Shown: positions 33,195 to 40,802 of the stretch, piece by piece | Layout: each line of letters begins with the position of its first letter | Numbering within the stretch: position 1 is the stretch's first letter | Assembly (NCBI GenBank): GCA_016213775.1 | Contig: JACQZR010000007.1 | Coordinates: 1-64,000, forward strand | From: Acidobacteriota bacterium | GTDB taxonomy: Bacteria > Acidobacteriota > Terriglobia > Bryobacterales > Bryobacteraceae | Reading direction: 5' to 3' | DNA length: 64,000 bases | Program-made: the position numbers and the translations under genes | Notes under the pieces: model-generated | Database searches by the model: none | Seen by the model: the letters and a program-made list of their open reading frames with translations, nothing else | Told to the model about the DNA's origin: nothing

Positions 33195-35219
33195 ATGAGT
33201 CTACTGAATGTCTTTGCGACGGGTTTAACTTTCTACGTTGTCGCGGCGGTCTGCGGGATGATTGCCGCTCTCAGCAAGCGTGATGGCAGAACACTGGTTT
33301 GCCTGACTTGTGTGGCCGGTGCGGCTTTTGAGGCGGTAGCAGCGCTGCGGGTGCTTCTCGCCGGTGACACTCTTTATTGGTCGTTTACCGCCGGGATTCC
33401 CAACTTCGCCTACTCGTTCCAGATCGATCCGCTGGCGGCTTTTTTCCTGCTCGCACTGTCAGCGCTGGCGATTCCGATTTCCATTTATTCGCTGGCCCGG
33501 CCGCACCTGGCGTCAACGGCGACGCCGTTCCAGTTATTCTATGCCCTGTTACTGTTGAGCATCACACTCGTGTTCAGCGCGAGTAATGTGATGACATTCC
33601 TTCTTGCCTGGGAGGGGATGGTTCTCACCGCGTACTGCATGGTGGTGAGCGCCCATGAAGAGAATGAGGTTCGCCGGGGAGGGCTTCTCTACATTCTCAT
33701 GTCGAGAGGTGGGACCGGATTTCTGTTCCTCGGGTTTCTGTTTCTGAGTCTCGGCTCCGGCAGTATGGAGTTCGCGTCGTTTCACAACGCCGGCATGCGT
33801 ATGGAGCCGTCATTTGGAGCGGCCACGTTCCTTCTGCTGTTTGCGGGATTCGGAATCAAGGCGGGCGTGATTCCGCTGCACATCTGGCTTCCCGCTGCGC
33901 ATCCGGTGGCGCCGAGCAATATCTCGGCGTTGATGTCCGGAATCCTGATCAAGACAGGCATCTACGGAATGGCGCGGGTGTTCTTCGATTTCTACGGCGA
34001 GCCGCCGGTATGGGCCGGCATGCTGGTGCTGTCGTTAGGCGTGGTGTCCGCGCTGCTGGGAGTGCTGTACGCGCTGATGGAGCATGATTTGAAGCGGCTG
34101 CTGGCGTTTCACAGCATCGAGAATATCGGGATCATTCTCATTGGCTTTGGAGCGGCACTCCTGTTCCGTTCGTTCGGTCAACCAAAGCTGGCGGCGCTGG
34201 CGCTGGTAGCGGGACTGTTTCACACGCTGAACCATGGAGTGTTCAAGGCACTGTTGTTTTTGGGCGCCGGCAGCGTTCTGCACGCGACGCACACGCGCAA
34301 CATGGAAGAGATGGGCGGGCTCATCCGGCGCATGCCCTCCACGGCGCTCTACTTCCTGATCGGGGCGGTGGCCATCTCGGGACTGCCGCCACTCAACGGG
34401 TTCGTCAGTGAGTGGCTGACGTATCAGGCGCTGCTGGCAGGTTTCGGAGTTACGGAGACGCTGACGCGGATGGCATTTCCGATCGCCGGCGCACTGCTGG
34501 CGCTGACTGCCGCTCTGGCGGCGGCCTGCTTCGTCAAGGCGTTTGGAATCACCTTTCTTGCTTTGCCGAGAAGTGAGCACGCGGCCGAGGCGCGAGAGGT
34601 GCCTGGTACGATGCGGGCGGCGATGGCCATCCTCGCGGTATTCTGCGCCGGTTTGGGATTGGGAGCGACGTGGTTTCTTCAGGTGTTCGACCCGATCACG
34701 CAACAGGCGTTCGGGGTGAGCGCCAGCCCGGCCATGGTCCTGAACAGCGGCCTCGCGTTGGCTGCCGGGCCAGGGGCGGGCACCGTTTCCCTTCTGGGTA
34801 TTGCTGTGTTTCTGATCGCTCTGCTGGCTGTCCCGGTGCTGCTGCGTAGCGTCTGGAAGCCCATTGGGCGGCCTTCCCATGGGCCAACGTGGGACTGCGG
34901 ATTGCCCGGCCTCACGGCTGCCAACGAGTACACCGCAACGGCGTTTTCAAAACCGTTGCGGATGATCTTTTCGGCACTGTTCCGTCCGCGGCGGGAGATT
35001 CTGACAGAGTTCGATGTGTCGCCCTACTACCCGACAGCGATCCGGTTTGAGAGCGAGATTCAACCGGCATTCGAGAAGCATTTCTACGATCCGCTAAAGA
35101 GCGGCATATTGACGATGGCGAAACGGATGCGGGGCATCCAGGCCGGCAGCGTCCATGCCTACCTCGCCTACATCTTTGTGACGCTCATCGCACTTCTGCT
35201 TTTCGGAGTGAGGGAATGA
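33195..35219 (+). CDS. hyfB: HyfB-like antiporter-type membrane subunit of an Ehr complex
   Basis: 674 residues, about 14-16 membrane helices, of the NuoL/M/N-Mrp antiporter family. Residues needed for proton translocation are kept: Glu in FLLAWEGM, Lys in GFGIKAGVIPLHIWLP, Lys in LIKTGIYG and Lys in NHGVFKALLFLGAG. The length and C-terminal soluble segment (TWDCGLPGLTAANEYTATAF) match hydrogenase-4 component B rather than NuoL, which has a lateral helix. First gene of an eight-gene run; its stop overlaps hyfC by four bases. Confidence 0.9.
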   Translation: MSLLNVFATGLTFYVVAAVCGMIAALSKRDGRTLVCLTCVAGAAFEAVAALRVLLAGDTLYWSFTAGIPNFAYSFQIDPLAAFFLLALSALAIPISIYSLARPHLASTATPFQLFYALLLLSITLVFSASNVMTFLLAWEGMVLTAYCMVVSAHEENEVRRGGLLYILMSRGGTGFLFLGFLFLSLGSGSMEFASFHNAGMRMEPSFGAATFLLLFAGFGIKAGVIPLHIWLPAAHPVAPSNISALMSGILIKTGIYGMARVFFDFYGEPPVWAGMLVLSLGVVSALLGVLYALMEHDLKRLLAFHSIENIGIILIGFGAALLFRSFGQPKLAALALVAGLFHTLNHGVFKALLFLGAGSVLHATHTRNMEEMGGLIRRMPSTALYFLIGAVAISGLPPLNGFVSEWLTYQALLAGFGVTETLTRMAFPIAGALLALTAALAAACFVKAFGITFLALPRSEHAAEAREVPGTMRAAMAILAVFCAGLGLGATWFLQVFDPITQQAFGVSASPAMVLNSGLALAAGPGAGTVSLLGIAVFLIALLAVPVLLRSVWKPIGRPSHGPTWDCGLPGLTAANEYTATAFSKPLRMIFSALFRPRREILTEFDVSPYYPTAIRFESEIQPAFEKHFYDPLKSGILTMAKRMRGIQAGSVHAYLAYIFVTLIALLLFGVRE

Positions 35220-36157
35220 GCAGCTACATCCTCTCCTTTTTCGCGCAACTGCTGCTATTGCTGTTCCTGCCTCCGCTGGTGGGTGGATTTATCAAAACGG
35301 CCAAAGCGCGGCTCCAGACGCGGCGCGGACCTGGACTGCTGCAGCCATATCGGGATCTGGCGAAGCTGGCGCGCAAGTCGATGGTGATCCCGAACACCGC
35401 CTCATGGATTTTCCATATCACGCCGCACGTGCTGTTCACCTCGACGCTGCTTGCGGGACTGATGATTCCCACGTTGTCGACGCGGCCTCCGCTTGCCATC
35501 GTCGGCGGCGTACTGGCCGTGGTCTACCTTCTTGCATTGGGGCGGTTCTTTCTGGCACTCGGGGGGCTCGATACCGGCAGCTCGTTTGGCGGCCTGGGAA
35601 GCAGCAGAGAAATGACGATCTCAGCCATCGCGGAGCCTGCGCTGATGTTGGCCGTATTCACTGTCGCGATCACAACCGGTTCGACGAATCTTGGCTCGAT
35701 GGCGGATCAAGCGCTCGGGCAGAGCTGGCGTTTCCTGTCGCCGTCGCAGATTCTGGCTTTCGCAGCGCTGCTTATCGTGCTGATCGCGGAGACGGGCCGC
35801 ATTCCAGTGGACAATCCCGCGACGCATCTGGAACTCACCATGATTCATGAAGCGATGATCCTGGAATACTCCGGACCGTGGCTGGCGCTGATTGAGTGGA
35901 GCGCTTCGATCAAGCAGTTCATCCTGATGTCTCTGCTGATCAACGTGTTCTTTCCCTTCGGGCTGGCTGCGGATTGGAGCCTGCCTGCGTTGGCGGTGAG
36001 CCTGGTGTGGCTGCTGCTCAAGCTGTTGCTGTTGGCGGTTGTAGTGATTCTGGTGGAAACCAGCAACGCCAAGTTGCGGCTCTTTCGCGTGCCGGAACTG
36101 CTGGCCGTCGCTTTTGTACTGAGCGCCCTTGCGCTGATATCGACGTTTTTGTTTTGA
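35216..36157 (+). CDS. hyfC: HyfC-like (NuoH-type) membrane subunit
   Basis: 313 residues with about eight helices, homologous to NuoH and HycD/HyfC, the subunit that anchors the peripheral arm. Diagnostic segments are RRGPGLLQPYRDLAKLARK near the N terminus, the cytosolic loop AETGRIPVDNPATHLELTM with its acidic residues, and IHEAMILEYSGPWLAL. Length fits HyfC. Overlaps hyfB by ATGA; the HyfE gene begins 11 bases later. Confidence 0.92.
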   Translation: MSSYILSFFAQLLLLLFLPPLVGGFIKTAKARLQTRRGPGLLQPYRDLAKLARKSMVIPNTASWIFHITPHVLFTSTLLAGLMIPTLSTRPPLAIVGGVLAVVYLLALGRFFLALGGLDTGSSFGGLGSSREMTISAIAEPALMLAVFTVAITTGSTNLGSMADQALGQSWRFLSPSQILAFAALLIVLIAETGRIPVDNPATHLELTMIHEAMILEYSGPWLALIEWSASIKQFILMSLLINVFFPFGLAADWSLPALAVSLVWLLLKLLLLAVVVILVETSNAKLRLFRVPELLAVAFVLSALALISTFLF

Positions 36158-36168
36158 AGTTGGTGACC

Positions 36169-39916: not shown

Positions 39917-39923
39917 AAGGCGC

Positions 39924-40802
39924 ATGTTCAAGATACTCAGCAAATCGGCGAGTACCGGAGTGGTAACTACCCGCTACCCGGAGACTGCCGCGCGCGTCTC
40001 GCCTCTATTTCGAGGCGCTCCGAAGATCAAGTTCGCGCGATGGTCCGACGCTCGTCCCGCGGCGGAGGCGTGTCCTACGGAAGCGATCTCGCTGTGCGAT
40101 GCCGGCTCAGAGCGGGAAGTAACTTTGGACTACGGCTTGTGTACGTTCTGCGGCTATTGCGCCGAGGCGGACTTGAGTGGTGCAATCACCATGACGAACG
40201 AGTTTGCGCTGGCGGTTCGTGCGCGGCAGGATCTTACCTTAATCGCCAGGTATGGACTGAACGGCGACGGCACTCATCAGGAGCTGCAGTCGGTAGAGCA
40301 GGGAAGTGTGGTGCACGAGCCAGGCCAGACGGAAGCGGCCATCCAGCGGGTGGCAAAGGTGCTGGGGCGGTCGCTGGCGATTCGCGAAGTGGACGCCGGC
40401 TCCTGCAACGGATGTGAACTGGAGATTGGCGCACTCAATAATCCAATTTACGATCTGGAGCGCTTAGGAATCCACTTTGCCGCTTCGCCGCGGCATGCGG
40501 ACATGCTTTTAGTTACTGGTCCGGTGACGCGCAATATGGAGTTGGCATTACTCAAGACTTACAATGCCACTCCGGATCCGAAAGTGGTTGTTGCGGTGGG
40601 TGCATGCGGCATCAGCGGCGGGATCTACGGCAAGAGTTATGCAATTACTGGCAGCGTCGGTGAAGTGGTGCCGGTGGATGTCTTTGTTCCAGGTTGCCCG
40701 CCTCGTCCGGAGGCCTTGTTACAGGGAATTCTGATAGCCGTCGGCCGGCTTGAGCAGCGGTTCCTGGGATTACGGTTCAACAACGAGGGATTCGCCTCGT
40801 AG
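39924..40802 (+). CDS. hyfI: HyfI-like small subunit fused to a ferredoxin-like domain
   Basis: 292 residues in two parts. Residues ~30-95 are a 2[4Fe-4S] ferredoxin-like domain in which only one site survives: C73-x2-C76-x2-C79 of the second motif plus C50 of the first (EACPTEAI); the other three-cysteine run and the second CP are missing. Residues ~130-285 are a NuoB/HycG-type small subunit with C161-x-x-C164 (SCNGCELEIG), GACGISGG and PGCPPRPEALL, so the proximal cluster site is complete. Hyf and Hyc systems usually encode these as separate proteins (HyfH and HyfI). Lies seven bases after hyfG. Confidence 0.9.
   Translation: MFKILSKSASTGVVTTRYPETAARVSPLFRGAPKIKFARWSDARPAAEACPTEAISLCDAGSEREVTLDYGLCTFCGYCAEADLSGAITMTNEFALAVRARQDLTLIARYGLNGDGTHQELQSVEQGSVVHEPGQTEAAIQRVAKVLGRSLAIREVDAGSCNGCELEIGALNNPIYDLERLGIHFAASPRHADMLLVTGPVTRNMELALLKTYNATPDPKVVVAVGACGISGGIYGKSYAITGSVGEVVPVDVFVPGCPPRPEALLQGILIAVGRLEQRFLGLRFNNEGFAS

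Follow-up and report, generated by a model that had tools for sequence, protein, structure and literature searches.

The stretch analysed here, called the window throughout, comprises 64,000 nucleotides of contig JACQZR010000007.1 from the 11 Mb genome of a soil bacterium of the Acidobacteriota (Bryobacteraceae). Between positions 33195 and 40802 it carries six open, co-directional and nearly overlapping genes in the order hyfB-hyfC-hyfE-hyfF-hyfG-hyfHI, which family searches (Pfam, NCBIfam) assign to HyfB/NuoL-like, HyfC/NuoH-like, HyfE, HyfF/NuoM-N-like, HyfG/NuoC-D fusion and HyfI/NuoB-like proteins. The genes, and the sites within them on which the analysis turns, are as follows.

33195..35219, + strand: hyfB, antiporter-like membrane subunit, 674 residues (NCBIfam PRK06521.1, above cut-off; E140, K222 and E406 present)
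35216..36157, + strand: hyfC, NuoH-like membrane subunit, 313 residues (Pfam, alignment)
35804..35872, + strand: E-channel loop of HyfC, PVDNPATHLELTMIHEAMILEYS, residues 197-219 (alignment)
36169..36855, + strand: hyfE, membrane subunit, 228 residues (likely start 36169, within a longer open frame)
36855..38363, + strand: hyfF, antiporter-like membrane subunit, 502 residues (E140, K230 and E405 present)
38360..39916, + strand: hyfG, NuoC-NuoD-type large subunit, 518 residues (no NiFe ligands; C-terminus TDR518)
39023..39034, + strand: codons for S222-G223-D224-S225, replacing CGxC (alignment)
39893..39904, + strand: codons S512 to G515, replacing CxxC (alignment)
39924..40802, + strand: hyfHI, fusion of HyfH (ferredoxin domain) and HyfI (NuoB-like), 292 residues (family searches, structure model)
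40071..40160, + strand: C50, C73, C76 and C79, ligands of the retained ferredoxin cluster, presumably of the NuoI N6b type (alignment)
40404..40697, + strand: C161, C164, C228 and C258, proximal cluster at the N2 position (alignment)

A first-pass annotation of this DNA had described six intact hyf genes at these positions, and all six are indeed open and assigned to families. The set it called complete comprises HyfB, C, E, F, G and HI; from hyfB to the SulP gene that follows the operon, nothing resembling HyfA or HyfD is encoded. Genes for the N-module of complex I (NuoE, NuoF, NuoG) are absent from the locus, and a separate NuoD is encoded on contig C268 of the host genome. The closest named matches of HyfG come from metagenome-assembled genomes (MAGs) of Bryobacterales and Solibacter.

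Alignment of HyfG with E. coli HycE and HyfG places S222, S225, S512 and G515 opposite the ligand cysteines of the CGIC and CxxC motifs, leaving no cysteine at any of the four NiFe ligand positions, just as the first-pass annotation had read them; the protein ends at ...YSGTDR518, with no extension beyond. We compared this site across relatives drawn from named genome contigs (56 loci), plasmids (six regions) and further genomes, almost all of them Acidobacteriota; before counting we removed duplicates, loci of true NuoD and short loci since replaced by others (L001-L004, L061-L080 except where a longer version was retained, L084-L095, and 19 short versions). Outside true-hydrogenase loci there are 123 HyfG rows, 118 of which align at all four ligand sites: 111 have no ligand cysteine (including L180, whose tail, at a contig end, is unreliable), 4 have one and 3 have all four. 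The closely related NiFe-less proteins of L123, L126, L127 and L129 have one cysteine left, at the first ligand place (CGDS). D224 is found in 109 of the 115 rows that lack a full cysteine set, and N506-K507-S508 in 111 of 118. In the group to which the window's HyfG belongs, S222, G223 and D224 never vary, and by conservation residues 504-518 rank in the top 0.8% of segments. On balance, selection is maintaining the vacated pocket, which is not decaying. The idea of a dead gene in decay was also considered, and is ruled out by the conservation of HyfG. Of 297 Acidobacteriota genomes sampled, 77 have HyfG-like proteins, the threshold used letting in some true group 4 hydrogenases as well.

By sequence, the nearest solved chain to HyfG is HycE (7z0s_E), and the structure model of HyfG likewise matches this chain best by fold (template modelling score, TM, 0.85). 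Among the matches listed for HyfG, the closest chain lacking a complete NiFe site, complex I aside, is that of the membrane-bound sulfane sulfur reductase, MBS (6u8y_L).

The locus has what characterizes an energy-converting hydrogenase-related (Ehr) complex, namely a group 4-like large subunit without CxxC ligands, encoded in one cluster with NuoB-, NuoH- and antiporter-like subunits, and it has none of the four cysteine ligands of a group 4 [NiFe]-hydrogenase. Judged by these features, it almost certainly encodes an Ehr complex. The first-pass filing under Ehr rather than hydrogenase is borne out by the ligand loss, by the phylogeny described below and by near-complete genomes that hold the complex without HypF and HypC. 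These two maturation proteins were sought in 70 genomes, of which G136, G092, G103, G100, G218 and G279, where the complex was not read, are left out of the counts. Both proteins are absent from 27 of the 55 genomes with a checked NiFe-less complex (the window's own among the 55), and from 22 of the 49 such genomes that are at least 90% complete, including the same-genus G010. Both are present in 8 of the 9 genomes that encode a NiFe-bearing group 4 enzyme, these eight being five of the formate hydrogenlyase (FHL) type and G065, G158 and G304, which also carry a NiFe-less complex. The exception, G176 (97% complete), has neither hypF nor HypC, and its locus L181 (G176:C72) is a partial large subunit showing only the first CxxC. 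The contrast between NiFe-bearing and NiFe-less genomes is weak (Fisher p 0.018 without G176, 0.073 with it); the stronger point is that many genomes retain the NiFe-less complex without a sign of NiFe maturation genes.

These observations bear directly on the idea that the complex is a working [NiFe]-hydrogenase whose metal is held by unusual serine and aspartate ligands. Polar residues do stand at three of the ligand places, and the host has HypF and HypC as well as two other NiFe-family hydrogenases (contigs C275 and C50), but the fourth place holds a glycine, and the near-complete genomes that keep such a complex without maturation proteins speak against it. So does the distribution of a HycI-like gene cluster, found at five true-hydrogenase loci, including that of E. 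coli (where hycI is annotated), and at no NiFe-less Ehr locus; taken together, this evidence makes the idea barely credible. The hypF gene within the window (26552-28864, - strand) was considered as a partner of the operon and set aside, since the host has other hydrogenases and many relatives have the complex without hypF.

A further change was found at the other end of the predicted electron path. The last gene, which the first-pass annotation called HyfI-like, is indeed NuoB-like over residues 161-272 of its product, but the label missed the similarity of residues 1-111 to the HycF family of E. coli, and with this HyfH half it missed the loss of one input cluster. A two-cluster ferredoxin domain has eight cysteines. 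Four are left in HyfHI, C50 (the fourth of the first motif) and C73, C76 and C79 (the first three of the second), which by ferredoxin rules would together ligate a single complete cluster, the one adjacent to N2 that complex I nomenclature calls N6b; the missing cysteines would presumably be those of the outer [4Fe-4S] cluster, N6a. The proximal-cluster cysteines noted in the first pass (C161, C164, C228 and C258) are all present, with the CxxC spacing of C161 and C164 being of the hydrogenase type. The alignment thus indicates that HyfHI has lost exactly the N6a ligands while retaining those of N6b and N2, and the exactness of this loss narrows the likely point of electron entry.

This pattern recurs among relatives. 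The 117 small subunits outside true-hydrogenase loci, which are mutual relatives and hence not independent counts, have two ferredoxin clusters in 37 cases, N6b alone in 65 (among them L142, where masked bases across the N6a sites leave the state beyond judgement) and none in 15. Where the ferredoxin domain is present (102 rows), the N6a cysteines number four in 37, one in 4 and zero in 61, never two or three, and the N6b set is full in 101, with the truncated sequence of L018 as the exception. The N2 cysteines are present in nearly all small-subunit rows. Zero-cluster forms (Variovorax complex B, Rhizobium) still start with a stretch resembling the N-terminal helix of HyfH. One Variovorax plasmid (L097) carries two adjoining complexes, one with a two-cluster fused small subunit and the other without the ferredoxin domain, and in two verrucomicrobial loci (L047:8868-11261 and L052:2056-4341) a second large and small subunit pair, ~39-41% identical to the window's, stands in tandem. 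The structure model of HyfHI is fair (mean predicted local distance difference test, pLDDT, 83.9), and its C-terminal part matches HycG and MbhJ, the latter also being the nearest solved chain to HyfI by sequence; the best 50 matches in a fold search of HyfHI were all NuoB-type chains, uninformative for the ferredoxin half.

The first-pass annotation had proposed a phylogeny of HyfG alongside the alignment, and we built one from large subunits, thinning the rows at 82% identity from 144 to 99 and then to 82; the fragments L056, L058, L059, L120, L166, part of L168 and L180 stand outside the tree. Rooted on one NuoCD row as the single outgroup, it groups HyfG with Hyc/Hyf-type proteins: all complexes of this type, those now devoid of the ferredoxin domain among them, make up a single clade (66 rows, support 100/100) that is sister to E. 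coli HycE/HyfG (88/79). The NiFe-bearing L110 and L115 branch inside this clade, with a divergent NiFe-less group to one side and the remaining rows to the other (97/92 on each side). Parsimony gives two changes of NiFe state, and a single NiFe-less clade is barely disfavoured (approximately unbiased, AU, test, p 0.049); two NiFe losses are likely on this tree. The data reject a topology in which all 21 one-cluster rows fall into a single clade (p 8.6e-6), and there are at least four changes in N6a state and at least two of the whole ferredoxin domain.

L110, L115 and L187 are the three loci with all four NiFe cysteines (CGxC, NKSFELCYxCTDR); each of the three has an N6b-only fusion and each ends at TDR. 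Because these NiFe-bearing proteins already have both features, the fusion and the loss of the tail predate NiFe loss. An enzyme of the NiFe type can evidently work with a wire whose end is N6b. The first-pass statement that HyfG ends without a cleavable extension is accurate, but the absence of a tail does not count as a sign of NiFe loss, since four-cysteine relatives stop at the identical residue. TDR is likewise the C-terminus of the true hydrogenase of Azospirillum lipoferum, and a reading of tail loss as NiFe loss was ruled out on these grounds. The three loci possibly represent a little-known type of hydrogenase, and offer with their NiFe-less relatives a before-and-after pair for the loss of NiFe.

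Some placements stand apart. The divergent NiFe-less subgroup of L156, L159, L164, L165, L183 and L184 shows motifs such as TGTS and MATFGLSTAEGD, and in all of these save L184 hyfB is positioned after the small-subunit gene. L057, on a contig in an Arcobacter MAG, groups with Bryobacterales complexes, and its assignment to the Arcobacter MAG is probably a binning error.

Turning to the membrane arm, the lysine and glutamates of antiporter-like subunits are present in both HyfB (E140, K222, E406) and HyfF (E140, K230, E405), as assigned by NuoL/NuoM residue numbers that we take to be correct; HycC of FHL has a leucine at the lysine position. HyfC matches four of the six NuoH acids examined (E140, D199, E206, E217). 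Its E-channel loop, which reads D-x-A/P-E-A-E-Q-E-L in E. coli HycD, HyfC and NuoH, is rewritten; the rewritten type was found by pattern in 46 of 47 SSSG-class loci, and a second group has DDPxTHLEL. Among the NiFe-bearing relatives, L187 has DNPDTHLEL in place of DxAEAEQEL, as does the partial L181, and the loci L110 and L115 end short of hyfC. The first-pass argument that the complex should still couple electron transfer to ion movement is borne out in part: the antiporter-like residues are retained, the original HyfC loop is not. Ion transport by the complex is plausible from these residues, and the alignment indicates a connection from the HyfG pocket to the membrane that differs from those of both FHL and complex I. 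Two hyfB-like genes stand in tandem in L014, L017, L029 and L043, and also in L136, L146, L170 and L185, a doubling that suggests an extra pumping module; in L050 it is hyfF that is apparently doubled.

Two genes follow the operon on the same strand.

40821..41168, + strand: ArsR-family regulator, 115 residues, without cysteine (Pfam/NCBIfam; starts 18 bp past hyfHI)
41165..42892, + strand: SulP-family anion transporter with a STAS domain (Pfam/NCBIfam; overlaps the ArsR gene)

Of 38 relatives whose two flanks are known, 26 have an ArsR gene no more than ~1.8 kb from the operon, and such genes are also found repeatedly in other Ehr groups, while other loci have in their place a regulator with helix-turn-helix and phosphotransferase system EIIA-type parts (cluster c6); the linked ArsR protein probably controls the operon. 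Its similarity to the sulfite sensor BigR is below cut-off, as is that of the SulP protein to DauA, its best-scoring match. SulP genes stand beside 4 of 56 relatives (L032, L040, L049, L050), all within 0.7 kb, and are absent at most loci. The expectation is 0.11 (65 matches in 41 genomes of the window's order), giving a Poisson P of ~6e-6, to be read with the relatives not being independent, L049 belonging to the window's genus, and L050 being verrucomicrobial while the density comes from the window's order only. Two loci of a different Ehr group (L163, L151) also have a SulP gene within reach.

This neighbourhood raises the possibility of a ferredoxin-fed reduction of sulfane sulfur (polysulfide) by the complex, at an N2 cluster left open, as in MBS of Pyrococcus furiosus, which is, from the available text, a characterized superfamily complex that has lost two NiFe cysteines and is fed by ferredoxin (PMC7684303). 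The adjoining SulP gene and the BigR-like trace in ArsR would fit. MBS activity, however, needs a shortened loop that leaves one N2 cysteine unbound, and HyfHI has neither this loop nor a three-cysteine N2 site, keeping the hydrogenase CxxC spacing and four N2 cysteines; together with an ArsR protein devoid of cysteine, this makes sulfur reduction an improbable account of the locus.

The same SulP association is also compatible with a mainly non-redox role, in which the complex would be a regulatory module or one driven by the proton-motive force, its wire decaying from the outside inwards, perhaps in the service of SulP-linked anion uptake. The stepwise loss of clusters across the family, from two to one to zero and in several lineages, is what such decay would leave. 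Retention of the N6b cysteines in 101 of 102 rows and of the N2 cysteines in nearly all, along with the conserved C-terminal pocket, nevertheless points to electron transfer and a substrate, and SulP is missing from most loci; we regard this role as doubtful at best.

A third possibility is a formate- or CO-linked complex, HyfHI being the docking place of a formate dehydrogenase or CO dehydrogenase encoded elsewhere. A pairing of formate dehydrogenase with Ehr has been proposed, in the accessible part of the source, for Margulisbacteria and Saganbacteria (PMC6349859), the host genome has molybdopterin oxidoreductase genes at other places, and the flank of L186 encodes, past a resolvase gene, a protein with cyclic-nucleotide-binding and ferredoxin domains (L186:2556-4211). 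At six true FHL-type loci, a molybdopterin oxidoreductase of one gene cluster (Pfam-checked on one member) lies beside the hydrogenase. Among Ehr loci, however, the only member of this cluster is at L027 (56 relatives, single-copy neighbours mostly unidentified), where it is ~6 kb and three genes off, on the opposite strand and below the formate dehydrogenase cut-off. No formate dehydrogenase or HycB-like adaptor gene occurs at window positions 26552-44598, leaving the locus without the linked genes of a formate hydrogenlyase, and N6a is gone from HyfHI. A formate- or CO-linked function is accordingly unlikely.

Other genes around the operon comprise, at 29012-33058, a Ser/Thr kinase with TPR repeats, a 244-residue protein without a Pfam match and an extracytoplasmic function (ECF) sigma factor gene divergent from hyfB, and, at 48192-54614, three neighbouring genes that each encode a SpoIIE-type phosphatase domain.

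From the parts and their conservation we infer a probable donor, acceptor, direction and ion-pumping role. The Ehr complex would descend from a group 4 [NiFe]-hydrogenase and now perform another redox reaction. A soluble low-potential carrier, most likely ferredoxin, would deliver electrons to N6b, now the terminus of the wire, on its solvent-facing side, from where they would pass through N2 to a substrate other than protons in the vacated polar pocket of HyfG, formed by S222-G223-D224-S225 opposite N506-K507-S508-F509 and S512. As in the NuoD relatives, the acceptor would most likely be a quinone, and its reduction would drive ions by way of HyfC to HyfB and HyfF. That a wire ending at N6b is workable is supported by the NiFe-bearing L110, L115 and L187, which have the same one-cluster subunit. 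We put the probability of this reading in full, from ferredoxin to quinone with ion pumping, at roughly 45%.

Several observations weigh against it. Two of the NuoH acids thought to carry coupling are gone from HyfC, E216 being replaced by A202 and E218 by H204. The seven-residue L1 segment of HyfG (221-227) is unremarkable, with 24% of segments equally conserved in the window's group. The HyfG model is of low confidence at 149-191 and 500-518, which make up much of the pocket, and for this reason no quinone site can be modelled. The 15 small subunits without a ferredoxin cluster indicate that this route of electron input is dispensable in the wider family, and the second complex of L047 has a small subunit lacking all four N2 cysteines with both ferredoxin clusters present. 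No shared donor gene (ferredoxin, flavoprotein or formate dehydrogenase) was found at Ehr loci among recurrent neighbour clusters, for which 20 proteins were Pfam-checked, single-copy neighbours being mostly unidentified. Quinone chemistry is weakly hinted at by paired genes for a cytochrome b and a multiheme cytochrome c, which stand beside no more than 3 of 56 loci (L020, L034 and L056).

Elements of these accounts can be joined. Such loci might encode complex I-type machines whose input arm has been shortened repeatedly, cluster by cluster, to two, one or none, with pump and pocket conserved; the zero-cluster forms would then work by a new principle, and the window's form may be tied to SulP anion uptake. 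An analogy for that tie is offered by DAB systems, where NuoL-like proteins act in the uptake of inorganic carbon. We consider this combination rather unlikely; if it were true, the zero-cluster forms would use a donor docking directly on N2, or chemistry driven by the proton-motive force, either of which would be new to the superfamily. Together, the NiFe-bearing one-cluster relatives and the exact loss of N6a open the question of the Ehr reaction to tests in which defined clusters of a small complex are removed or compared.

The Ehr group was already in the literature by 2013-2014, with Coppi 2005 and Marreiros 2013 among the works cited on it. In the accessible parts of the published accounts, complexes without CxxC motifs and of unknown function are described from Sulfobacillus (PMC4378227), comammox Nitrospira (PMC10284858, where they are placed near group 4f), ammonia-oxidising archaea (PMC10432482) and Margulisbacteria (PMC6349859), along with a group 4 enzyme lacking the motif in another Nitrospira (PMC12542776). 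The first-pass remark that the electron donor and acceptor of Ehr complexes are unknown agrees with the available text of the first three, the reports from Nitrospira, the archaea, Sulfobacillus and others giving no known reaction.

Among characterized systems, MBS of P. furiosus resembles the window's complex, as far as the source extends, in being a ferredoxin-fed superfamily member without a full NiFe site, and differs in its two remaining ligand cysteines, altered N2 loop, three clusters and Mrp-type membrane arm. The Q-module of complex I (NuoB, C, D, I, H) has the same folds and the N2 cluster, and NuoD too is without NiFe ligands, but complex I has other residues at the ligand places, a full NuoI, the N-module and a different channel loop. 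By description, Rv0081-Rv0087 of Mycobacterium tuberculosis presumably presents a like arrangement of hyc-like genes with a neighbouring Smt/ArsR regulator gene. The ArsR product there belongs, in the portions available, to the hypoxia response (PMC6177252, PMC5484546). E. coli Hyc/Hyf provides the best solved sequence relative of HyfG (7z0s_E), the nearest outside group in the tree and homologues of HyfB, C, E and F; unlike the window's complex, it has the NiFe site, the C-terminal tail, a separate two-cluster HyfH, HycB with FdhF, and the AEAEQEL loop. Published Ehr complexes, in the descriptions available, likewise combine group 4-like subunits, absent NiFe ligands, antiporter-like subunits and an unknown function. 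In the parts of that literature we found, neither the one-cluster HyfH-HyfI fusion nor the SulP link is reported, no title among the papers listed concerns acidobacterial Ehr complexes or a SulP link, and a fusion lacking exactly one cluster is a feature of the window that these descriptions do not share.

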